Source: Sulfuricella sp. (GTDB taxonomy: Bacteria; Pseudomonadota; Gammaproteobacteria; Burkholderiales; Sulfuricellaceae). From it: a stretch of 64,000 nucleotides of DNA. Position numbers and translations under genes: made by a program. The stretch lies in assembly GCA_023266195.1 (NCBI GenBank), contig JAHFRP010000004.1, forward strand, positions 1-64,000, written 5' to 3'. This document shows positions 41,920 to 54,416 of this stretch, in pieces (within the stretch, counting starts at the first letter, position 1; each line of letters begins with the position of its first letter). A model generated the notes under the pieces. It did no database searches. It was not told the origin of the DNA and worked only from the letters and a program-made list of their open reading frames with translations.

Positions 41920-41983
41920 GTAGGTCGGGCACCCCGTGCCCGACAATGGCATGGATTTGTCGGGCACGGGGTGCCCGACCTAC
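41920..41983. repeat. BIME family C
   Basis: Same two-arm structure. Confidence 0.9.
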
Positions 41984-42067
41984 ATGATGAGTTGCAGGGT
42001 GCGCCCTATGCGGCGTTTTCCGCGATCGGGGATAACTCGACCCACAAAAAATAACCGGCTCAAGGCA

Positions 42068-43237
42068 ATGCAACCCAATACCCTGTTTTCTTTTCTATTT
42101 CCTGTCCAGTCCTCGGTCACCCACCGCGAGAAGATCGTCTCCGGCCTTGGCGGCGTGCTCGCCATCTTCCTCACTACCCTGGTCACCAGGGATTTCCTCG
42201 GCGCAGTCACCCTGCCTTTCCTGCTCGCCTCCATGGGGGCCTCCACCGTATTGCTGCTGGGCGCGCCGCACAGCCCGCTGTCGCAGCCGTGGTCGTTCGC
42301 CGGCGGACACCTCGTTTCAGCAGCCATCGGCATCACCTGCGCCGTCAACGTCCCGAATGTCTATCTGGCGGCGGGGCTGGCCGTGGGGCTGTCCATCAGC
42401 GCGATGTACTACCTGCGCTGCCTGCACCCGCCCGGCGGGGCCACCGCGCTGCTCACAGTGATCGGCGACCAGAAGATCCACGCGCTGGGCTACCACTTTC
42501 TTTTCATGCCGGTGCTGACCAACGTGGCCATCCTGCTCACGGCGGCCCTGGTCATCAACAACCTGATCCCCGGCCGGCGCTACCCGCTGGCCCTGCGCCC
42601 GCACGGGAAGAGCCATGCCGTGCCGTCGAAAGCGCCGGTCAAACTGGGCTTCGACGCCGAAGACCTGCACCGGGCGCTGCGGGAAATGGACGGCTACATC
42701 GACGTCGCCGAAGAAGACCTGACGCGGATCTACGGGCTCGCCACGCTGCACGCCCATCAGCGCGGCCTGGGCAACCTCACGTTGCGCAGCGTGATGACGC
42801 CCGGGGTGGTCGCGGTGGAGGCCGGCGCCCGGCTGGAGCAAGTGTGGGAACTGCTGCGCCACCACAGCATCCGCGGCGTTCCGGTGATCGACGACGAGCG
42901 CCGGGTGATCGGCATGGTCGCCATCGCCGACTTTCTCAAGCAGGTGAACTGGCGCATGTGCGAGACGCTGGCGCAGCGCCTGAAACTCGTCTTCAAGCGG
43001 CAGTCGAAAATTTCGGTGCACGCCATCATGACCGCGCCGGCGATCACCGCCACGGCGGACACGCCCCTGACCCAGGTGTTCCTGATCTTCAAGGAAAAAG
43101 GCATCAACCACCTGCCGGTCATCGACGAAGGCCGCCGGCTGATCGGCATCGTCACGCGGCTCGACCTGCTCTCGGCGCTGTATGGCGATCTGGGCTCGAC
43201 GCAGTCTCCAATCCCGGTGGGTCAGGCTCCAGCCTGA
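42068..43237 (+). CDS. HPP-family membrane protein with C-terminal CBS pair
   Basis: LASMGASTVLLLGAPHSPLSQPW, CLHPPGGATALL, two CBS repeats (SVMTPGVVAVEAG..., AIMTAPAITATAD...). Confidence 0.92.
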   Translation: MQPNTLFSFLFPVQSSVTHREKIVSGLGGVLAIFLTTLVTRDFLGAVTLPFLLASMGASTVLLLGAPHSPLSQPWSFAGGHLVSAAIGITCAVNVPNVYLAAGLAVGLSISAMYYLRCLHPPGGATALLTVIGDQKIHALGYHFLFMPVLTNVAILLTAALVINNLIPGRRYPLALRPHGKSHAVPSKAPVKLGFDAEDLHRALREMDGYIDVAEEDLTRIYGLATLHAHQRGLGNLTLRSVMTPGVVAVEAGARLEQVWELLRHHSIRGVPVIDDERRVIGMVAIADFLKQVNWRMCETLAQRLKLVFKRQSKISVHAIMTAPAITATADTPLTQVFLIFKEKGINHLPVIDEGRRLIGIVTRLDLLSALYGDLGSTQSPIPVGQAPA

Positions 43238-43345
43238 CCTCGCCGGCGCGGCGCCCCCACAAAGCGCCGGCCTATATCTCATCTTGTCCTGCCGCCCGCC
43301 CCTGCCTACAATGGGCGGCTCGATCCACCGCATCGCAGAAACGAA

Positions 43346-44674
43346 TTGCCCAACCTTTTTGCCCGCCGATCCCGGCATCTCTGGCTGTCGGTACGCCAAT
43401 GGAAGCGTCGGCTGCTGTTCTGGAGCGGCGCCGTTTGCGTCGGCGCGGCCGCCGTGTTCTTCGCCAAGGGGAGCGAACAGGCCAACCTGCTGTTCCACCG
43501 CATCGTCGCGTTCTCTCCTTACCTGCCGCTGCTGATCGCCCCCGCCGGCCTCGCCCTGGTCGCCTGGGTCACGCGCCGGTTTTTCCCCGGCTCACAGGGC
43601 AGCGGCATCCCCCAGACCATCGCCGCGCTGGCCATGCCGGATCGCGGCGCCCGCGCGGCCGTGCTGTCGCTGCGCATCGCCTTCGGCAAGATTTTTCTGA
43701 CGCTGCTCGCCCTGCTGTCGGGCGCATCGGTGGGGCGCGAAGGGCCGACGGTCCAGATCGGCGCCGCCATCATGCATGCGCTGGGCAGCCATATCCGCTT
43801 TACCCGACGGGACATGGAAAGAGGGCTGATCCTGGCCGGCGGCGCCGCCGGCGTCGCCGCCGCCTTCAACACGCCGCTGGCCGGCGTGGTGTTCGCCATC
43901 GAGGAAATGAGCCGCTCCTTCGAGGAAAAAACCAACGGCACCGTGCTCACCGCGGTGATCGTCGCCGGCATGGCTTCGCTCGCCATGATGGGCAACTACA
44001 CTTATTTCGGCCATACCTCCGCCTCGCTCGGCTTCGGCCAGGGCTGGCTCGCCGTGCTGTTCTGCGGCGTTGCCGGCGGGCTGGCCGGCGGTTTGTTCAG
44101 CCGGATACTGACCGCATTCGCGGGCGGCGTGCCGGGCCGCGCCGGCGAGTCGATCCGGCGACACCCGGTGGCGTTCGCGGCCCTGTGCGGCTTTCTCCTC
44201 GCGCTGATCGGGCTGTTGTCGGGCGGCACCACCTACGGCACCGGCTACCAGGAAGCCAAAACACTGCTGGAATCCGGCCACGCCGTGCCGGATTCCTACG
44301 GCGCGCTCAAGATGCTGGCCACCATCGTGTCCTATCTGAGCGGCATCCCAGGCGGCATCTTCGCGCCGTCGCTGGCTGTCGGTGCCGGCTTCGGCGCCAA
44401 CCTGGCCGGCCTGATGCCCTATGCGCCGTCCGGAGCGGTCATCGTCCTCGGCATGGTGGCCTATTTTGCCGGCGTGGTTCAGGCGCCGATCACCGCATTC
44501 GTGATCGTGATGGAAATGACCGACAACCACGGCCTGCTGCTGCCGCTGATGGCGGCGTCCATCATCGCTTCCGTGACCTCGCGCCTGGTATGCCGCAAAC
44601 CGCTGTACAAGGCCCTGGCGGAAAATTTCCTGAAACGCCCGGCCGCTCCCAAGGCAATCACCGGCCAATCCTGA
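43346..44674 (+). CDS. ClC-family chloride channel/transporter
   Basis: GSGIPQTIAAL, GREGPTVQIGAAI, GGIFAPSLAVGAGFG; TTG start. Confidence 0.92.
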   Translation: MPNLFARRSRHLWLSVRQWKRRLLFWSGAVCVGAAAVFFAKGSEQANLLFHRIVAFSPYLPLLIAPAGLALVAWVTRRFFPGSQGSGIPQTIAALAMPDRGARAAVLSLRIAFGKIFLTLLALLSGASVGREGPTVQIGAAIMHALGSHIRFTRRDMERGLILAGGAAGVAAAFNTPLAGVVFAIEEMSRSFEEKTNGTVLTAVIVAGMASLAMMGNYTYFGHTSASLGFGQGWLAVLFCGVAGGLAGGLFSRILTAFAGGVPGRAGESIRRHPVAFAALCGFLLALIGLLSGGTTYGTGYQEAKTLLESGHAVPDSYGALKMLATIVSYLSGIPGGIFAPSLAVGAGFGANLAGLMPYAPSGAVIVLGMVAYFAGVVQAPITAFVIVMEMTDNHGLLLPLMAASIIASVTSRLVCRKPLYKALAENFLKRPAAPKAITGQS

Positions 44675-44788: not shown

Positions 44789-44804
44789 TGGCACGAAGTT
44801 TGCG
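44789..44804 (+). promoter_or_regulatory. Candidate sigma-54 (-24/-12) promoter upstream of nasT
   Basis: TGGCACgaagtTTGCG matches TGGCAC-N5-TTGC. Confidence 0.75.
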
Positions 44805-44819
44805 TTGGATTATCGAACA

Positions 44820-45425
44820 ATGACTCAAGCGACCAGAAAGAACGAAAAACCCCTGCGCGTGCTGCTGGTGGACGAAACCTTCGAGCGCGCCGCGCTGCTC
44901 AAGCACGCGCTGCAGGAGGCGGGCTGCAAGATCGCGGCTCACGTCTCGGCCAGCGCCGACCTGCCGGGCCTGGTGGCCGAGCTCAAGCCCGATCTGATCC
45001 TGCTCGACACCGAATCGCCCGACCGCGACACCTTTGAACACCTGTGCGTCATCAGCCGCGACCAGCCGCGCCCGATCGTGATGTTCACCCACGACAACGA
45101 CAGCGACAAGATCCGCGCCGCCATTCGCGCCGGGGTCAGCGCCTATGTGGTGGATGGGCTGAAAAGCGAGCGCCTGAAGCCGATCATGGACGTCGCCATC
45201 GCCCGCTTCAACGAGTTCCAGGCGATGCGGCGCGATCTGGAAAAAGCGGAAAGCCGGCTCGCCGAGCGCAAGGTGGTGGACCGCGCCAAGGGCATCCTGA
45301 TGAAGCAGCGCGGCTGGTCGGAGGAAGAAGCCTACCAGGCATTGCGCAAAATGGCCATGGACAAGGGTTTGCGCCTGTCCGACGTAGCCGGACAGGTAAT
45401 CTCCATCTCCGAACTGTTGGGTTGA
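44820..45425 (+). CDS. nasT: NasT-like response regulator with ANTAR RNA-binding domain
   Basis: LRVLLVDETFERAALL receiver; C-terminal LAERKVVDRAKGILMKQRGWSEEEAYQALRKMAMDKGLRLSDVA ANTAR. Confidence 0.94.
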   Translation: MTQATRKNEKPLRVLLVDETFERAALLKHALQEAGCKIAAHVSASADLPGLVAELKPDLILLDTESPDRDTFEHLCVISRDQPRPIVMFTHDNDSDKIRAAIRAGVSAYVVDGLKSERLKPIMDVAIARFNEFQAMRRDLEKAESRLAERKVVDRAKGILMKQRGWSEEEAYQALRKMAMDKGLRLSDVAGQVISISELLG

Positions 45426-45435
45426 CGCAGCAACC

Positions 45436-45451
45436 TGGCACAACGATTGCT
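45436..45451 (+). promoter_or_regulatory. Candidate sigma-54 promoter upstream of nrtA
   Basis: TGGCACaacgaTTGCT, exact match to TGGCAC-N5-TTGCT. Confidence 0.85.
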
Positions 45452-45466
45452 AAGAGTTAACCAACA

Positions 45467-45517
45467 GCCCAACGGCGGGCCGGCAGGTTTGCAGTAATTT
45501 TTGGTCAAAGACGGCCA
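45467..45517 (+). promoter_or_regulatory. Candidate ANTAR-target RNA: two hairpins with hexanucleotide loops
   Basis: P1 GCCC-AACGGC-GGGC (45467-45480), P2 TGGTC-AAAGAC-GGCCA (45502-45517); both loops have A at 1 and G at 4. Confidence 0.75.
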
Positions 45518-45527
45518 GGTAACGGAC

Positions 45528-45580
45528 AAAGGCGTCCATTCGCGGAATCGGGTTCGGTTTCGCGGGTGCGACGCCTTTTT
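45528..45580 (+). terminator. Leader intrinsic terminator (attenuator) before nrtA
   Basis: AAAGGCGTC ... inner CGCGGAA/TTTCGCG ... GACGCCTTTTT. Confidence 0.78.
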
Positions 45581-45609
45581 GTTTTGCGGATTTGAACAGG
45601 GAGAAAACC

Positions 45610-46863
45610 ATGGATGACGCATTTAAAGACAGCCGGAGGGATTTCATGAAAAAAGGTGCAACCTGGCTCGGCGCCGGGGCGCTGATGGCGATGGTGGACC
45701 CGGCCATTCGCGGCGGCGCCTGGGCGGCCGGCTCCGACGCGCCGGAGAAGACCGAGGTGAAGGTCGGCTTCATTCCGCTGACCGACTGCGCCTCGGTGGT
45801 GATCGCATCGGTGATGGGCTTCGACAAGAAATACGGCATCAGGATCGTTCCCAGCAAGGAGGCCTCCTGGGCCGGCGTGCGCGACAAGCTCACCAACGGC
45901 GAGCTGGACGCCTCCCACGTGCTGTACGGCCTGATCTACGGCGTGCAGCTGGGCATCGGCGGGCCGAAGAAGGACATGGCGGTGCTCATGGGCATCAACC
46001 ACAACGGCCAGGCCATTTCTCTATCCAATCAGCTCAAGGCCAAGGGCGCGGTGGACGGCGCCAGCCTGGCCGCGCTGATCAGGAAAGAGCCGCGCGAATA
46101 CACCTTCGCCCAGACCTTCCCCACCGGCACCCACGCCATGTGGCTGTACTACTGGCTGGCGAGCTACGGCGTAAACCCGTTCAGCAACGTCAAGAACATC
46201 ACCGTGCCGCCGCCGCAGATGATCGCCAACATGCGCGTCGGCAACATGGACGGCTTCTGCGTGGGCGAGCCGTGGAACGCGCGCGCCATCCGCGACCAGG
46301 TCGGCTTCACGGCCGTGACCAGCCAGGACATCTGGAAGGACCATCCGGAAAAAGTGCTCGGCACCACCGCGGAGTGGGTAGCCAAGCACCCCAACACCGC
46401 CCGCGCCCTGATCATGGCGATCCTCGACGCGTCCAGGTACATCGACGAGATGAAGAACCGCTCCGCCGTGGCCAAGGTCATCGCCGAGAAATCCTACGTC
46501 AACACCGACTTCGATTCGATCGAAGACCGCATGCTCGGCAAGTACGACAACGGCAACGGCAGGAAATGGCAGGACGCCAACTACATGAAGTTCTACAACG
46601 ACGGCGCGGTGAATTTCCCCTACCTGTCCGACGGCATGTGGTTCCTCACCCAGCACAGGCGCTGGGGCCTGCTCAAGGAAGACCCGGACTACCTGGCGGT
46701 GGCGAAAAAGGTCAACCAGATCGAGCTGTACAAACAGGCGGCGACCCAGACCAAAACGCCGCTGCCGAAGGACGCGATGCGCAGCAGCAAGCTGATCGAC
46801 GGCAGCGTGTGGGACGGCAAGAACCCGAAGGCCTACGCCGCCGGGTTCAAGGTCAAGGTTTGA
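45610..46863 (+). CDS. nrtA: Nitrate ABC transporter substrate-binding protein, Tat-exported
   Basis: SRRDFMKKGATWLGAGALMAM Tat signal; VGFIPLTDCASVVIASVMGFDKKYGI; NrtA/CmpA family. Confidence 0.9.
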   Translation: MDDAFKDSRRDFMKKGATWLGAGALMAMVDPAIRGGAWAAGSDAPEKTEVKVGFIPLTDCASVVIASVMGFDKKYGIRIVPSKEASWAGVRDKLTNGELDASHVLYGLIYGVQLGIGGPKKDMAVLMGINHNGQAISLSNQLKAKGAVDGASLAALIRKEPREYTFAQTFPTGTHAMWLYYWLASYGVNPFSNVKNITVPPPQMIANMRVGNMDGFCVGEPWNARAIRDQVGFTAVTSQDIWKDHPEKVLGTTAEWVAKHPNTARALIMAILDASRYIDEMKNRSAVAKVIAEKSYVNTDFDSIEDRMLGKYDNGNGRKWQDANYMKFYNDGAVNFPYLSDGMWFLTQHRRWGLLKEDPDYLAVAKKVNQIELYKQAATQTKTPLPKDAMRSSKLIDGSVWDGKNPKAYAAGFKVKV

Positions 46864-46991: not shown

Positions 46992-47897
46992 ATGAACGCC
47001 GTTACTCTCGCGGAAAGCATGGCGAATATCGGAAACATCGGGCAGGCGGCTCCAGCCGCGACGGAGGCGCCCAAAGTGCAACTCAATCCCGCACAGCCGG
47101 AACCCGCCCCCACCCGCCCGCTGTCGGTCTGGCTGGGCGCGGCGATGCGCGCCGCAATCCCGCCGCTGCTCGGCCTGGTGCTGTTCGTCGGCCTCTGGGC
47201 GCTGGTGTCGCAGGCCAGCCCGCAGCTGCCCGGACCGGGCAAGACCTGGGCTTCGGCGGTGCAGCTGTTCAGCGACCCGTTCTACCGCAAGGGCCCCAAC
47301 GACCAGGGCATCGGCTGGAACATCCTGGCTTCCCTGCAGCGCGTCGGCATCGGTTTCGGCATGGCCGCGCTGGTCGGGATTCCGCTCGGCTTCATGATCG
47401 GCCGCTTCGATTTCCTCAACCGCATGACCGCGCCCATCATCAGCCTGCTGCGCCCGGTGTCGCCGCTCGCCTGGCTGCCGATCGGCCTGCTGGTGTTCAA
47501 GGCGGCCAACCCGGCGGCGATCTGGGTGATCTTCATCTCCAGCATCTGGCCGATGATCATCAACACCGCCGTGGGCGTGAACCGGATTCCGTCGGACTAC
47601 ATGAACGTGGCCAAGGTGCTCAACCTGTCCGAATGGAAGATCTTCACCAAGATCCTGTTCCCCGCCGTGCTGCCGCACATGATGACCGGCATCCGGCTGT
47701 CCATCGGCGTGGCCTGGCTGGTGATCGTGGCCGCCGAAATGCTCACCGGCGGCGTCGGCATCGGCTTCTGGGTGTGGGACGAATGGAACAACCTCAATGT
47801 CGAGCACATCATCATCGCCATCTTCATCGTCGGCATCGTCGGCCTGCTGCTGGAGTATGCGCTGATCATGCTGGCCAGGCGGTTCAGCTACGAGTGA
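46992..47897 (+). CDS. nrtB: Nitrate ABC transporter permease
   Basis: GIGWNILASLQRVGIGFGMAALVGIPLGFMIGR..SPLAWLPIGLLVFK. Confidence 0.92.
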   Translation: MNAVTLAESMANIGNIGQAAPAATEAPKVQLNPAQPEPAPTRPLSVWLGAAMRAAIPPLLGLVLFVGLWALVSQASPQLPGPGKTWASAVQLFSDPFYRKGPNDQGIGWNILASLQRVGIGFGMAALVGIPLGFMIGRFDFLNRMTAPIISLLRPVSPLAWLPIGLLVFKAANPAAIWVIFISSIWPMIINTAVGVNRIPSDYMNVAKVLNLSEWKIFTKILFPAVLPHMMTGIRLSIGVAWLVIVAAEMLTGGVGIGFWVWDEWNNLNVEHIIIAIFIVGIVGLLLEYALIMLARRFSYE

Positions 47898-47910
47898 CGA
47901 GGAGACAATC

Positions 47911-48702
47911 ATGGAAAAATACGTCCAAGTCGAAAACGTGCGCATGGTGTTCAACACCAAAAAAGGCCCCTTCGTGGCGCTGCGCGACATCAACCTGAAC
48001 ATCCGGCAGGGCGAGTTCGTCGCCCTCATCGGCCACTCCGGCTGCGGCAAGTCCACTCTGCTCAACCTGGTCGCGGGGCTGACCCTGCCCAGCGCCGGCG
48101 CGATGTTCTGCGCCGGACGCGAAATCGCCGGCCCCGGCCCTGATCGCGGCGTGGTGTTCCAGAACCACAGCCTGCTGCCCTGGCTGACCTGCTTCGAGAA
48201 TGTCCATCTCGCGGTGGAGCGCGTGTTCGGCCGCGCGGAGAGCGCATCCAGCCTGAAGAAGCGCGCCCACGAAGCGCTCGCACTGGTGGGCCTGACCCAC
48301 GCCGAGCACAAGCATCCGCACGAAATCTCCGGCGGCATGAAGCAGCGCGTCGGCATCGCCCGCGCCCTCTCCATGCAGCCCAAGGTGCTGCTGCTGGACG
48401 AGCCGTTCGGCGCGCTGGACGCGCTCACCCGCGCCCATCTCCAGGACGAGCTGATGAAGATCACGGCGGAAACCAAGAGCACGGTGGTGATGGTGACCCA
48501 CGACGTGGACGAGGCGGTGCTGCTGTCCGACCGCATCGTGATGATGACCAACGGCCCGGCGGCCACCATCGGCGAAATCCTGCGGGTAGACCTGCCGCGC
48601 CCGCGCGAACGGCTGGCGCTGGCCAACGATCCCCAATACCATGAATACCGCGGCGCGGTGCTGGATTTCCTGTATCGGCGCCAGCTGCGCCCGGCGGCGT
48701 AG
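47911..48702 (+). CDS. nrtD: Nitrate ABC transporter ATP-binding protein
   Basis: LIGHSGCGKSTLLNLVAGL, SGGMKQRVGIARAL, LLLDEPFGALDALTRAHLQDEL. Confidence 0.93.
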   Translation: MEKYVQVENVRMVFNTKKGPFVALRDINLNIRQGEFVALIGHSGCGKSTLLNLVAGLTLPSAGAMFCAGREIAGPGPDRGVVFQNHSLLPWLTCFENVHLAVERVFGRAESASSLKKRAHEALALVGLTHAEHKHPHEISGGMKQRVGIARALSMQPKVLLLDEPFGALDALTRAHLQDELMKITAETKSTVVMVTHDVDEAVLLSDRIVMMTNGPAATIGEILRVDLPRPRERLALANDPQYHEYRGAVLDFLYRRQLRPAA

Positions 48703-48706
48703 CGGC

Positions 48707-48777
48707 GTAGGTCGGGCACCCCGTGCCCGACAAAACATTTATCGCAAAAACCGTCGGGCACGGGGTGCCCGACCTAC
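48707..48777. repeat. BIME family C
   Basis: Same two-arm structure between nrtD and nirD. Confidence 0.9.
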
Positions 48778-48786
48778 TGGAGAAAT

Positions 48787-49098
48787 ATGATGACCGAATG
48801 GATCGAAATCTGCGCCCTGGAAGAAATCCCCCGCCAAGGCACGCGCAAGGTTAAAAGCGGCGACGCCCACATCGCCCTGTTCCGCACCCAGGAGGATGAA
48901 ATCTTCGCCCTCGCCGACCGCTGCCCGCACAAGGGCGGCCCGCTGTCGGAAGGCATGGTGTGCGGCAAGCACGTCACCTGCGCGCTGCACAGCTGGAACA
49001 TCGGCCTCGCGGACGGCAAGGCGGCGGCGCCGGACGTGGGCGAAACGCCGACCTACCCGGTCAAGGTGGATGCCGGCGTGGTGTTCATCCAGCTTTAA
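48787..49098 (+). CDS. nirD: Nitrite reductase small subunit (Rieske-type)
   Basis: WIEICALEEIPRQGTRKVK...DRCPHKGGPLSEGMVCGKHVTCALHSWNIGL. Confidence 0.92.
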   Translation: MMTEWIEICALEEIPRQGTRKVKSGDAHIALFRTQEDEIFALADRCPHKGGPLSEGMVCGKHVTCALHSWNIGLADGKAAAPDVGETPTYPVKVDAGVVFIQL

Positions 49099-49114
49099 TC
49101 CGAAACTCGCGAAG

Positions 49115-49172
49115 CGAGACTTCGTCCCCCTCGCCCGCTGGCGGGAGAGGGTTAGGGGAGAGGGAGCGCATT
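49115..49172. repeat. Family A repeat between nirD and nasA
   Basis: GCGAGACTTCGTCCCCCTCGCCCGCTGGCGGGAGAGGGTTAGGGGAGAGGGAG. Confidence 0.85.
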
Positions 49173-49198
49173 CCTCAGCAACGAGCCGAAACCAAACC

Positions 49199-51919
49199 AT
49201 GTCCGAGACCAAAACCATCTGCTGTTACTGCGGCACCGGCTGCGGAGTGATCGTCGAGAGCGACGGCGCCCGCGTCACCGGCGTGCGCGGCGACCCGGAT
49301 CACCCGGTCAATGCCGGGCGGCTGTGCAGCAAGGGCGCCAACCTGCACCTGACGGTGCGCGCCGACGCCTCGCGCGTGCTGCGCCCCGAGCTGCGCCGCG
49401 AGCGGCAGGCGGAGCGCCGGCCGGCGGGCTGGGACGAGGCGCTGGATTTCGCCGCGGACAAGTTCGCCGCCGCGATCCGGGAACACGGCCCGGACAGCGT
49501 CGCCTTCTACGTTTCCGGCCAGCTGCTGACCGAGGACTATTACGTTTTCAACAAGCTGGCGCGCGGCCTGGCCGGCACCAACAACATCGATTCCAACTCG
49601 CGCCTGTGCATGTCCTCGGCGGTGGCGGGATACAAGGCCACGCTGGGCGCGGATGCACCGCCGGCCTGCTACGACGACATCGAACAGGCCGGCTGCATCT
49701 TCATCGCCGGCGCCAACCCGGCTTTCGCCCATCCGATCCTGTTCCGCCGCATCGAAGCGGCCAAGGCGGCCAATCCCACGCTGAAACTGATCGTGGTCGA
49801 TCCGCGCCGCACCGACACCGCGGCCGGCGCCGACCTGCACCTGGCGATCCGGCCCGGCACCGATGTCGCGCTGTTCCACGCCATGCTGCACGTGCTGCTG
49901 CGCAACGGCCTGGCGGATCGCACATTCATCCGCGCCCACACCGAAGGCTTCGCGGCGATCGAGGCCACGGTGCGCGCATTCGCGCCCGAGGCCGCCGCCG
50001 CCCTGTGCGGCGTGGCGGCGGAAGACATCGAGCGCGCCGCGCACTGGTTCGGCCGCTCCGGTGCCGCCCTGTCGCTGTATTGCCAGGGATTGAACCAGTC
50101 CAGCCACGGCACCGACAACAATACCGCGCTGATCAACCTGCATCTCGCTACCGGCATGATCGGCAAGCCGGGCGCCGGGCCGCTGTCCCTCACCGGCCAG
50201 CCCAACGCCATGGGCGGGCGCGAAGTAGGGGCGATGGCGACCCTGCTCGGCGGCCACCGCGACCCGGCCGACCCCGCCCACCGCGCCGAACTGGCAGAGC
50301 TGTGGGGCGTGCCCGCCCTGCCCGAGAAGCCGGGCAGGACCGCGGTGGAAATGTTCGAAGCGGTACGGCGCGGCGAGATCAAGGCGATCTGGATCGCCTG
50401 CACCAACCCGGCCCAGTCGCTGCCCCACCAGCAACAAGTGCGCGAAGCGCTGGAACAGGCCGAGCTGGTGGTGGTGCAGGAAGCCTTTGCCGGCACCGAA
50501 ACCGCGGCTTACGCCGACATTCTCCTGCCCGCCGCCACCTGGCCGGAGAAGGACGGCACCATGACCAACTCCGAGCGCCGCGTCGGCCGCGTCGGCGCCG
50601 CCCTGCCGCCGCCCGGCGCGGCCCGCGCCGACTGGGACATCGCCGCCGATTTCGCCCGGCGCCTGGGCGCGAGGCTGGACAAGGCCGAAATCGCCGAACG
50701 GCTGTTCGCCTACGCCGGCCCCGAGCAGATTTTTGCCGAACACTGCGCCGTCACGCGCGGCCGCGACCTCGACATCGGCGGCCTGTCGTATGCCCAGCTG
50801 GAAGAAAAAGGCCCACAGCAATGGCCTTTCCCGCCGGGCGCGGAAACCGGCGCCGCCCGGCTCTACGCCGACGGCGAATTCCCCACCGCGAGCGGCCGGG
50901 CCGCTTTTGGCGATATCGCCTTGCGGCCGGTGGCCGAGGCGGCCGACGCGCGCTATCCGCTATCCCTCCTCACCGGCCGGCTGCGCGACCAGTGGCACGG
51001 CATGAGCCGCACCGGCCTGGCCGCGCGGCTGTGGAACCATGCCGAGGCGCCGCGGCTGGAAATGTCCCCGTCCGACATGCAGCAGCGCGGCTTGAGCGAC
51101 GGCGGCCTGGTACGGATCGAGAGCCGGCGCGGCGCGCTGACCCTCACGGTGCAGGCGTCGTCCGACCTCCTGCCCGGCCAGGCTTTCCTGCCGATGCACT
51201 GGGGCGGGCGTTTTCTCAAAGGCCTGGGGGTGAACGCACTGACCCTGGATGCCTGCGATCCCCAGTCGCGCCAGCCCGAGTTCAAGCACTGCGCGGTCGA
51301 GGTGGAAAAACTCGACCTGCCGTGGCGGCTGGTGGCGCTGCGCCGCGGCGATGCGGGCGCCTACCTGCGCCGCTTGCAGCCGCTGCTGGCGCGCTTCCCC
51401 TTTGCGGCCGTCGGGCTGGCGGGAGTGGAAACCGAGCTGGTGGTGCTGCGCGCGGCCGCGGCCGAAGCCCCCGACCCTGCGCTGCTGGCCGAGCTGGAGG
51501 AGTTGCTGGAGCTGGACGACGACGCCAATGCGATGGTCTATCTCGACAGCCGGCGCGGCATCGCCAAGCGCCTGCTGGTAGAGGACGGCGCCGTCGTCGG
51601 CGCGCTGCTCACCGGCGAAACCGCCGCAGCGGAATGGCTCAAGGACGGCATGGCGCGCAGCCAGCCGCTGGCCGAAACGCGCGCCTGGGCGCTGGCGCCG
51701 CTGGCCGCGCCGCCGGACGGCAAATCGGGCCGCGGCCGGGTGGTATGCAACTGCCTCAACGTGGCGGAGAAAGAGATCGTAGCCGCCATCGCCGCCGGTG
51801 CGGGCCTGGCGGCGCTACAGGAAAAATTGAAATGCGGCACCCAGTGCGGGTCGTGCGTGCCGGAAATCAGGCGAATGGTAACGAGCAACGGGCAACAAGC
51901 GGCGATGGGGCGCGGATGA
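49199..51919 (+). CDS. nasA: Assimilatory nitrate reductase catalytic subunit with C-terminal BFD domain
   Basis: CCYCGTGCGVIVESDG...GRLCSKGANLHL; molybdopterin oxidoreductase motifs; C-terminal VVCNCLNVAEKEI...CGTQCGSCVPEIRR. Confidence 0.95.
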   Translation: MSETKTICCYCGTGCGVIVESDGARVTGVRGDPDHPVNAGRLCSKGANLHLTVRADASRVLRPELRRERQAERRPAGWDEALDFAADKFAAAIREHGPDSVAFYVSGQLLTEDYYVFNKLARGLAGTNNIDSNSRLCMSSAVAGYKATLGADAPPACYDDIEQAGCIFIAGANPAFAHPILFRRIEAAKAANPTLKLIVVDPRRTDTAAGADLHLAIRPGTDVALFHAMLHVLLRNGLADRTFIRAHTEGFAAIEATVRAFAPEAAAALCGVAAEDIERAAHWFGRSGAALSLYCQGLNQSSHGTDNNTALINLHLATGMIGKPGAGPLSLTGQPNAMGGREVGAMATLLGGHRDPADPAHRAELAELWGVPALPEKPGRTAVEMFEAVRRGEIKAIWIACTNPAQSLPHQQQVREALEQAELVVVQEAFAGTETAAYADILLPAATWPEKDGTMTNSERRVGRVGAALPPPGAARADWDIAADFARRLGARLDKAEIAERLFAYAGPEQIFAEHCAVTRGRDLDIGGLSYAQLEEKGPQQWPFPPGAETGAARLYADGEFPTASGRAAFGDIALRPVAEAADARYPLSLLTGRLRDQWHGMSRTGLAARLWNHAEAPRLEMSPSDMQQRGLSDGGLVRIESRRGALTLTVQASSDLLPGQAFLPMHWGGRFLKGLGVNALTLDACDPQSRQPEFKHCAVEVEKLDLPWRLVALRRGDAGAYLRRLQPLLARFPFAAVGLAGVETELVVLRAAAAEAPDPALLAELEELLELDDDANAMVYLDSRRGIAKRLLVEDGAVVGALLTGETAAAEWLKDGMARSQPLAETRAWALAPLAAPPDGKSGRGRVVCNCLNVAEKEIVAAIAAGAGLAALQEKLKCGTQCGSCVPEIRRMVTSNGQQAAMGRG

Positions 51920-51974
51920 CGGGCATTTTCCCGTCATTCCTCTCCGCATGGCCCACTTTTTAAGGAGCGACATC

Positions 51975-54416
51975 ATGCAAAAAATGAAACTGGTAATGGT
52001 CGGCAACGGCATGGCGGGCGTGCGCACGCTGGAAGAGCTGCTCAAGCTGGCGCCTGGACTCTACGACATCACCGTGTTCGGCGCGGAGCCGCACGGCAAC
52101 TACAACCGCATCATGCTGTCCCCGGTGCTGGCCGGGGAGCAGACCATCCAGGACATCATGCTCAACGATGTGGACTGGTACAAGGAAAATGGCATCACCC
52201 TGCACCTCAACCGGAAGGTGGTCAAGATCGACCGCCGTGCGCGCAAGGTTTACAGCGAGGACGGCACCGCCACCGACTACGACCGGCTGATCCTGGCGAC
52301 CGGTTCCACGCCGTTCATCCTGCCGGTGCCGGGCAACGACCTCGCCGGCGTCGTCGGCTTCCGCGACATCCACGACGTGGACGCCATGATCGCGGCATCG
52401 GGGCACTACCGCCACGCGGTGGTGATCGGCGGCGGCCTGCTCGGCCTGGAAGCCGCCAACGGCCTCAAGCTGCGCGGCATGGACGTGACCGTGGTGCACA
52501 TCGCCGACTGGCTGCTGGAGCGGCAGCTGGACCAGACCGCCGCCAAGTTGCTGCAGAAGAACCTGGAAGAAAAAGGCCTGAAATTCCTGCTGAGAAAGCA
52601 GACGGCGGCGCTGCTGCCGGCGACGCAGGACGGCGGCGAAAAGCGCGTGGGGAGCATTAAATTCTCCGACGGCAGCGAAATTCCCGCCGACCTGGTGGTG
52701 ATGGCGGTGGGCATCCGCCCCAACGCCGCCCTGGCGGAATCGGCCGGCATCCATTGCAACCGCGGCATCGTGGTGAACGACACGATGCAGACCTACGACC
52801 CGCGCATCTACGCCATCGGCGAATGCGTCAGCCATCGCGGCATCGCCTACGGCCTGGTCGCGCCGCTGTTCGAAATGGCCAAGGTGTGCGCCAACCACCT
52901 GGCGGAAATGGGCATCGGCCGCTACACCGGCTCGCTCACCTCGACCAAGCTCAAGGTGACCGGCATCGACCTGTTCTCCGCCGGCAATTTCAGCGGCGGC
53001 GACAAGACCGAGGACATCCTGCTGTCCGACCCGGTGGCCGGCGTGTACAAAAGGCTGGTGATCGAGGACAACAAGCTGGTCGGCGCCGTGCTGTACGGCG
53101 ACACCGTGGACGGCGCTTGGTACTTCCAGCTGCTGCGCGAGGGACGGGACATTTCCGACATCCGCGACCATCTCATGTTCGGCCAGAGCCGCGTCGGCGA
53201 CGTCGGCCACCAGGGCCAGCACAAGGCGGCGGCGATGTCCGACGACATGGAAGTGTGCGGCTGCAACGGCGTCTGCAAGGGCACCATCGTCAAGGCGATC
53301 AAGGAAAAAGGCCTGTTCACCCTGGACGACGTGAAGAAGCACACCAAGGCGGCGTCCTCCTGCGGCTCCTGCACCGGCCTGGTGGAGCAGATCCTGACCT
53401 CCACCCTGGGCGGCGACTACTCGCCGGCGCCGGCGGTCAAGCCGATGTGCGGCTGCACCGACCACACCCACGAGGAAGTGCGCGCGGTCATCCGCAAGCA
53501 AAAGCTGCTGTCGATCCCGGAAACCATGCGCTTCCTCGAATGGCGCACGCCCGACGGCTGCGCCAGCTGCCGTCCGGCGCTCAACTACTACCTGATTTCC
53601 ACCTGGCCGCACGAGGCGAAAAACGATCCGCAATCGCGCTTCATCAACGAACGCGCCCACGCCAACATCCAGAAGGACGGCACCTACTCGGTGGTGCCGC
53701 GCATGTGGGGCGGCGTGACCACCGCCGCCGACCTGCGCCGCATCGCCGACGTGGCGGACAAATATCAGGTGCCGATGATCCGCGTCACCGGCGGCCAGCG
53801 CATCGACCTGTTCGGCATCAGGAAGGAAGACCTGCCGGGCGTGTGGGCCGACCTCGACATGCCGTCCGGCCATGCCTACGGCAAGGCGCTGCGCACGGTG
53901 AAAACCTGCGTCGGCAGCGAATTCTGCCGCTTCGGCACGCAGAATTCGACGCAGATGGGCATCGACCTGGAACAGGCCTTCTACAAGATGTGGGCGCCGC
54001 ACAAGGTCAAGCTCGCCGTGTCCGGCTGCCCGCGCAACTGCGCCGAGGCCGCGATCAAGGACGTCGGCGTGATCGGCGTGGATTCCGGCTGGGAAATCTA
54101 CGTCGGCGGCAACGGCGGCATCAAGACCGAAGTGGCGGAATTCCTGGTCAAGGTCAAGACGGCGGAAGAAGTGCTGGAATACAGCGGCGCCTTCCTCCAG
54201 CTCTACCGCGAGGAAGCGCGCTACCTCGACCGCACCGTGCACTGGCTGCAACGCGTCGGCCTGGATTACGTCAGGAAGCGGGTGCTGGACGACGAGGCCG
54301 GCCGCAAGGCGCTGTATGCCAGGCTGATGTATGCCGTCCAAGGCGAACCGGACCCGTGGCGGGAATGCACCACCGAGGGCGAGGCGCGGCGGGAATTCGA
54401 GGTGCTGGAGGCGTAG
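51975..54416 (+). CDS. nirB: Nitrite reductase [NAD(P)H] large subunit
   Basis: VGNGMAGVRTLEELLK, VCGCNGVCKGTIVKAI, SSCGSCTGLVEQIL, siroheme motif SGCPRNCAEAAIKDVGVIGVDSGWEIYVGGNGG. Confidence 0.97.
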   Translation: MQKMKLVMVGNGMAGVRTLEELLKLAPGLYDITVFGAEPHGNYNRIMLSPVLAGEQTIQDIMLNDVDWYKENGITLHLNRKVVKIDRRARKVYSEDGTATDYDRLILATGSTPFILPVPGNDLAGVVGFRDIHDVDAMIAASGHYRHAVVIGGGLLGLEAANGLKLRGMDVTVVHIADWLLERQLDQTAAKLLQKNLEEKGLKFLLRKQTAALLPATQDGGEKRVGSIKFSDGSEIPADLVVMAVGIRPNAALAESAGIHCNRGIVVNDTMQTYDPRIYAIGECVSHRGIAYGLVAPLFEMAKVCANHLAEMGIGRYTGSLTSTKLKVTGIDLFSAGNFSGGDKTEDILLSDPVAGVYKRLVIEDNKLVGAVLYGDTVDGAWYFQLLREGRDISDIRDHLMFGQSRVGDVGHQGQHKAAAMSDDMEVCGCNGVCKGTIVKAIKEKGLFTLDDVKKHTKAASSCGSCTGLVEQILTSTLGGDYSPAPAVKPMCGCTDHTHEEVRAVIRKQKLLSIPETMRFLEWRTPDGCASCRPALNYYLISTWPHEAKNDPQSRFINERAHANIQKDGTYSVVPRMWGGVTTAADLRRIADVADKYQVPMIRVTGGQRIDLFGIRKEDLPGVWADLDMPSGHAYGKALRTVKTCVGSEFCRFGTQNSTQMGIDLEQAFYKMWAPHKVKLAVSGCPRNCAEAAIKDVGVIGVDSGWEIYVGGNGGIKTEVAEFLVKVKTAEEVLEYSGAFLQLYREEARYLDRTVHWLQRVGLDYVRKRVLDDEAGRKALYARLMYAVQGEPDPWRECTTEGEARREFEVLEA

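Follow-up and report, generated by a model that had tools for sequence, protein, structure and literature searches.

Antitermination by ANTAR proteins through two leader hairpins is known from EutV/eutP and NasR/nasF (PMC3369931, PMC7496416, PMC8934654), and the published target rules are an A1/G4 hexaloop and a second hairpin, P2, overlapping the terminator (PMC3369931, PMC7496416). The need of ANTAR targets for two hairpins, when one dimer holds only one, is an open question; a proposed answer is that the protein hops from a recruitment hairpin onto the antiterminator (PMC8934654). In the NasS-NasT systems, with nasA leaders described from Paracoccus (PMC3795266, PMC5424462), Azotobacter and Pseudomonas, NasT binds leader RNA and NasS makes NasT nitrate-responsive, nitrate freeing NasT from NasS (PMC3795266). 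Sigma-54 promoters ahead of nasT-type genes were predicted earlier (PMC12316311), and sigma-54 plus ANTAR attenuators are already established. Two Rfam families are also close: P11 (RF00625), the leader of a Pseudomonas nirB-type operon, and narK (RF03032).

The locus described here lies in Sulfuricella sp. (Burkholderiales; Sulfuricellaceae), assembly GCA_023266195.1, contig JAHFRP010000004.1, positions 1-64,000 of the forward strand; this 64,000 nt stretch is called the window. The leader between nasT and nrtA shares with the ANTAR two-hairpin systems the A1/G4 hexaloops, the CG closing pair and the mutual exclusion of second hairpin and terminator. It differs from them in having three hexaloops (H1, H2 and H3), in a first hexaloop fixed to the predicted transcription start, and in the distance of H1 from H2 (21 nt, or 36 nt loop to loop), which is beyond the length tolerated for the EutV linker. 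Common to the window and the NasS-NasT nasA leaders are a NasT ortholog, a nitrate-assimilation operon, leader hairpins with a terminator, and nitrogen control, whereas in the window it is the leader of an nrtABD-type operon that nasT immediately precedes, and NasS was found neither in the genome nor in the family. P11 has a sigma-54 element, GGAC-AAAGGC-GTCC and a terminator; a member of the class above the P11 cut-off has the same plan as the window leader, which itself scores 22.4 bits, below the gathering cut-off of 70. The narK family likewise has a sigma-54 element, a hexaloop and a GGAC-AAAGGC-GTCC-type hairpin, but several of its members are short two-hexaloop leaders, while the window has the long three-hairpin form (23.9 bits, below the gathering cut-off of 43.2). 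What is new is the number of hexaloops, three, the anchoring of the first hairpin at the 5' end, and the setting without a detected NasS; an earlier description of them is possible. Taken together, the sequence comparisons make it highly probable that nrtABD-nirD-nasA-nirB is under two-step control, by sigma-54 initiation and by NasT antitermination via H3.

Gene order and promoters

The features are listed below in order of position.

44789..44804, + strand: sigma-54 -24/-12 element of nasT, TGGCACGAAGTTTGCG; predicted start about 44815, about 5 nt 5' of the nasT ATG
44820..45425, + strand: nasT, pseudo-receiver plus ANTAR RNA-binding antiterminator (Pfam PF03861, 9.4e-22, and PF00072)
45426-45609: nasT-nrtA gap, 184 nt
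45436..45451, + strand: sigma-54 -24/-12 element of the nrtA operon, TGGCACAACGATTGCT; predicted start about 45462
45467..45480, + strand: H1, GCCC-AACGGC-GGGC, hexaloop hairpin at the transcript 5' end; proposed recruitment hairpin
45502..45517, + strand: H2, TGGTC-AAAGAC-GGCCA, predicted ANTAR P1 of the canonical pair; proposed optional relay
45524..45537, + strand: H3, GGAC-AAAGGC-GTCC, very probable antiterminator (ANTAR P2), overlapping the terminator 5' arm
45528..45580, + strand: intrinsic terminator, AAAGGCGTC...GACGCCTTTTT, about -35 kcal/mol, with U tract
45610..46863, + strand: nrtA, Tat-exported nitrate-binding protein (PF13379, 5e-104), first gene of the controlled operon
46992..54416, + strand: nrtB, nrtD, nirD, nasA-type nitrate reductase and nirB, the remainder of the operon

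The gap thus contains, in order, the sigma-54 element, H1, H2, H3 and the intrinsic terminator. The export signal of NrtA is the Tat motif SRRDFMKK. Assignment of nrtB, nrtD, nirD and nirB is based on matches to TIGR01183, TIGR01184, TIGR02378 and TIGR02374, and the nasA-type product carries molybdopterin oxidoreductase domains (Pfam). The genes just 5' of nasT on the same strand (41936-44674) encode a CBS-domain-containing HPP transmembrane protein and a ClC-type channel; a role in nitrite/nitrate or anion transport is possible. In a search for further leader copies the exact H3 sequence, GGACAAAGGCGTCC, occurred once in the genome; a plasmid search with the leader as query gave no matches.

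A sequence-only reading of this DNA had claimed a perfect -24/-12 element between nasT and nrtA, and the element at 45436-45451 indeed fits TGGCAC-N5-TTGCW exactly, as the sole exact match across the 64 kb window. By itself the motif is weak evidence, because 2.4 matches are expected in the window at one mismatch allowed. It is kept in relatives whether NasT is present or absent. The first T of the nasT element lies only 31 nt 5' of the ATG, so that the predicted nasT transcript is nearly leaderless; a candidate nasT ATG 27-31 nt after a sigma-54 element is kept in about 30 nasT loci of varied beta and gamma lineages. The genome encodes RpoN and a full-length, true NtrC, and initiation at the nrtA operon is most likely under NtrC. 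A search of the window for an NtrC site near the nrtA promoter returned none stronger than chance. In NasT-less relatives (L143, L145, L146, L147), NtrC-like palindromes, CGCACCATTCGGGTGCG for example, lie about 94-107 nt 5' of the nrtA sigma-54 element.

Hexaloop hairpins and the terminator

H1, H2 and H3 are each CG-closed hexaloops with A1 and G4. Within the 149 nt that run from the predicted start to nrtA, three such loops were obtained in 4 of 20,000 dinucleotide shuffles, and the whole leader has a folding energy of -54.5 kcal/mol (z = -4.9). The hexaloops of H1 and H2 and the terminator had been named in the sequence-only reading and can be read directly from the letters; H3 was missed there, and it is H3 that competes with the terminator. 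The loop AAAGGC and 3' arm GTCC of H3 form the 5' arm of the terminator, and since 45528-45537 is common to both, the two structures are mutually exclusive. This geometry is the one published for the second ANTAR hairpin.

Growing RNA prefixes were folded from the predicted start. Between +20 and +28 the best fold is H1; H2 has appeared by +60 and H3 by +76, and H3 is displaced only once the 3' arm of the terminator is made, after +110. At about -35 kcal/mol against -4 kcal/mol for H3 alone, the terminator wins without protein. H1 has only 4 bp in the window, and after about +36 the minimum free energy (MFE) fold prefers a hairpin at 45475-45492 instead, a displacement that is lineage-specific, absent in most relatives and a reservation about H1. 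This overlapping hairpin is terminator-like, with the tail AGTAATTTTT; a tandem attenuator formed by it was considered and rejected, there being no T-run after H1 in relatives, and the resemblance is treated as chance.

Covariation was assessed in 18 aligned leaders from the host family and neighbouring families. Loop positions A1, A2, G4 and C6 of H1 are invariant, and two-sided changes affect three stem pairs of H1 and four of H2. Over H1 and H2 together 95.5% of cells pair, against 22-47% with the partner slid, and 30 cells are two-sided, against 11 in shuffles. H3 is paired in 18 of 18 and is the most conserved hairpin; both it and the terminator are near-invariant, and low variation is expected of a stretch obliged to form two structures. 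When the H1 and H2 regions of 49 leaders were each folded alone, with no condition on the loop, an A1/G4 hexaloop was the MFE structure in 24 and 28 leaders, respectively, compared with 1% of shuffles. Several relatives (e.g. L013, L018, L105) have a decayed H2 with H1 kept; judged from the leaders compared, H2 is an optional part.

H3 is, on this pattern, very probably the ANTAR antiterminator, with H2-H3 rather than H1-H2 as the predicted canonical P1-P2 pair. The opposite assignment, with H1-H2 as the ANTAR pair, nitrate releasing NasT and the terminator as a separate downstream element, is consistent with the A1/G4 loops and the covariation of both hairpins. It is nevertheless very improbable: the H2-H3 gap of about 6 nt is in the published P1-P2 range (5-12 nt for EutV targets, PMC3369931) whereas the H1-H2 gap is 21 nt, only the most conserved hairpin, H3, overlaps the terminator, and NasS was not found in the family genomes.

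Distribution of the leader in relatives

Within the host family 22 genomes were searched, of which 19 were compared: 13 with a nasT ortholog and six with nrtA but without such a nasT (G001, G002, G006, G009, G010, G012; completeness is 79-89% for three of these assemblies). In 13/13 NasT-containing members nrtA is preceded by H3, by the terminator and by one or more further hexaloops. All six NasT-less members have a sigma-54 element before nrtA, and hexaloops or a terminator between this element and the nrtA start codon were found in none of them. Such a split has a chance of 1 in 27,132 with genomes counted as independent, which serves as a guide only, the genomes being related. The NasT-less members keep the promoter without the hairpins; promoter and hairpins can therefore be separated, and it is NasT that the hairpins accompany, a co-occurrence in favour of binding by NasT. 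The sequence-only reading would have failed if relatives with nasT-nrtA synteny lacked the hairpins; instead, these are kept and covary in such relatives, and are gone without nasT while the promoter stays.

Beyond the family, 83 of the 399 genomes from the host order and 34 of the 369 from the class have the core pattern GGACAAMGGCGTCC-N20-50-TTTTT; the reversed pattern, used as control, gave near zero. Among 59 distinct leaders, by the criteria used here, 30 have two hexaloops, 21 have three and 8 have H3 only. In some genomes (L068, L070, G387, G351, G183) one nitrate cluster carries a pair of ANTAR leaders, separated by about 1-4 kb. In other genomes the hairpin/terminator core also occurs away from nasT. 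This occurrence, the perfect conserved promoter between nasT and the stem-loop, and hexaloops that covary and are far above chance, all speak against taking the stem-loop at 45528-45580, which lies 100 nt after the nasT stop, merely as the nasT transcription terminator with fortuitous hexaloops, a reading that is left with next to no probability.

Matches to the P11 and narK models have a common plan of sigma-54 element, one or more hexaloops, GGAC-AAAGGC-GTCC or a close variant, and terminator, and both Rfam families would be NasT-type leaders. P11 has been reported as a regulator of the nirB-type nitrogen assimilation operon of P. aeruginosa that also acts on C. elegans (PMC12080996). This report and the weak match of the window leader to the P11 model (22.4 bits) would suit a terminated leader that is mainly a stable trans-acting small RNA, as proposed for Pseudomonas P11, with read-through secondary. 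The P11 locus itself, with promoter, hexaloop, H3 and terminator, fits an attenuator by-product, and the hairpins vanish along with NasT; a mainly trans-acting role is thus improbable, and antitermination by NasT is preferred.

A sigma-54 element could be recognised in 79 leaders, and in these the distance from the T of TGGCAC to H3 ranges from 57 to 149 nt. The first hexaloop starts 33-43 nt after this T in 52 of the 79, compared with a mean of 21 and a maximum of 37 under random placement (2000 trials). For the 50 leaders collected by pattern or Rfam model, not by NasT similarity, the count is 33 against 14 at random (maximum 25). This placement puts the loop near +10 and ties the first hairpin to the transcript 5' end, not to the terminator. 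Measured from the predicted promoters, the first hexaloop of sigma-54-driven leaders is mostly at a fixed 5'-end place, whatever the terminator distance. No counterpart of it was found in the literature compared, the P11/nirB and Azotobacter NasT studies lying outside that comparison. In loci L167, L169 and L170, which strain a short-linker rule most, about 110 nt separate the first hexaloop from H3, and no other A1/G4 hexaloop was detected between.

NasT without NasS, and the proposed mechanism

The sole PF13379 match in the window genome is the Tat-tagged NrtA. A separate NasS was found in none of the 22 family genomes, where a NasS query gave only NrtA-type proteins (19 of 22 genomes with any match); as positive control, the NasS/NrtA family model recognises true NasS. 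As no NasS was found, nitrate responsiveness is not transferable from the model systems, and NasT activity is probably set by the amount of NasT or by another nitrate-binding partner, e.g. the NrtA precursor. Dosage is an option because nasT has its own sigma-54 element (44789-44804). The NasT receiver has VDG where the usual Lys stands, in groups with and without NasS; an explanation of NasS loss by the NasT phosphorylation residues was rejected, the receiver being alike in both groups. A second ANTAR protein with a full receiver domain is encoded elsewhere in the genome (L002, C12:113918-114493), beside a histidine-kinase-like ORF. Of the control scheme first suggested for this operon, sigma-54 with NasT/ANTAR antitermination of the nrt-nas-nir genes is upheld by conservation, covariation and co-loss; its nitrate dependence is not, as the family has no detected NasS.

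Sequence and comparison give the promoter, the three hexaloops, the exclusivity of H3 and terminator, the covariation, and the presence of the hairpins only with NasT; NasT binding, its order and the signal are what we infer. Sigma-54 RNA polymerase would start about 5 nt 5' of H1, and by default the nascent RNA would fold into the strong terminator. NasT, from the gene directly upstream, would bind the A1/G4 hexaloops, being recruited at H1 and/or H2, and would then hold H3, so that the terminator is blocked and the operon read. By analogy with the hopping model (PMC8934654), H1 may be the recruitment hairpin, H2 a relay and H3 the antiterminator. With RpoN and full-length NtrC encoded, the separate sigma-54 promoter of nasT may make this a feed-forward AND gate that responds to nitrogen limitation. 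A tentative and rather doubtful extension is a NasT switch that works without NasS through an H1-H2-H3 relay anchored at the 5' end, in which NasT loads on the first hairpin to emerge and the signal is NasT dosage or folded cytoplasmic NrtA precursor sensing nitrate. If true, sigma-54/NasT leaders in general, the narK and P11 RNAs among them, would keep a fixed distance from start to first hexaloop.

Leaders that differ in hexaloop number, from one to three, and mostly have the first at a set place relative to the predicted start would provide ready-made tests of the hopping model. The narK and P11 RNAs, differently named in Rfam, would be tied to one mechanism, and the host lineage appears to keep NasT without its nitrate sensor.
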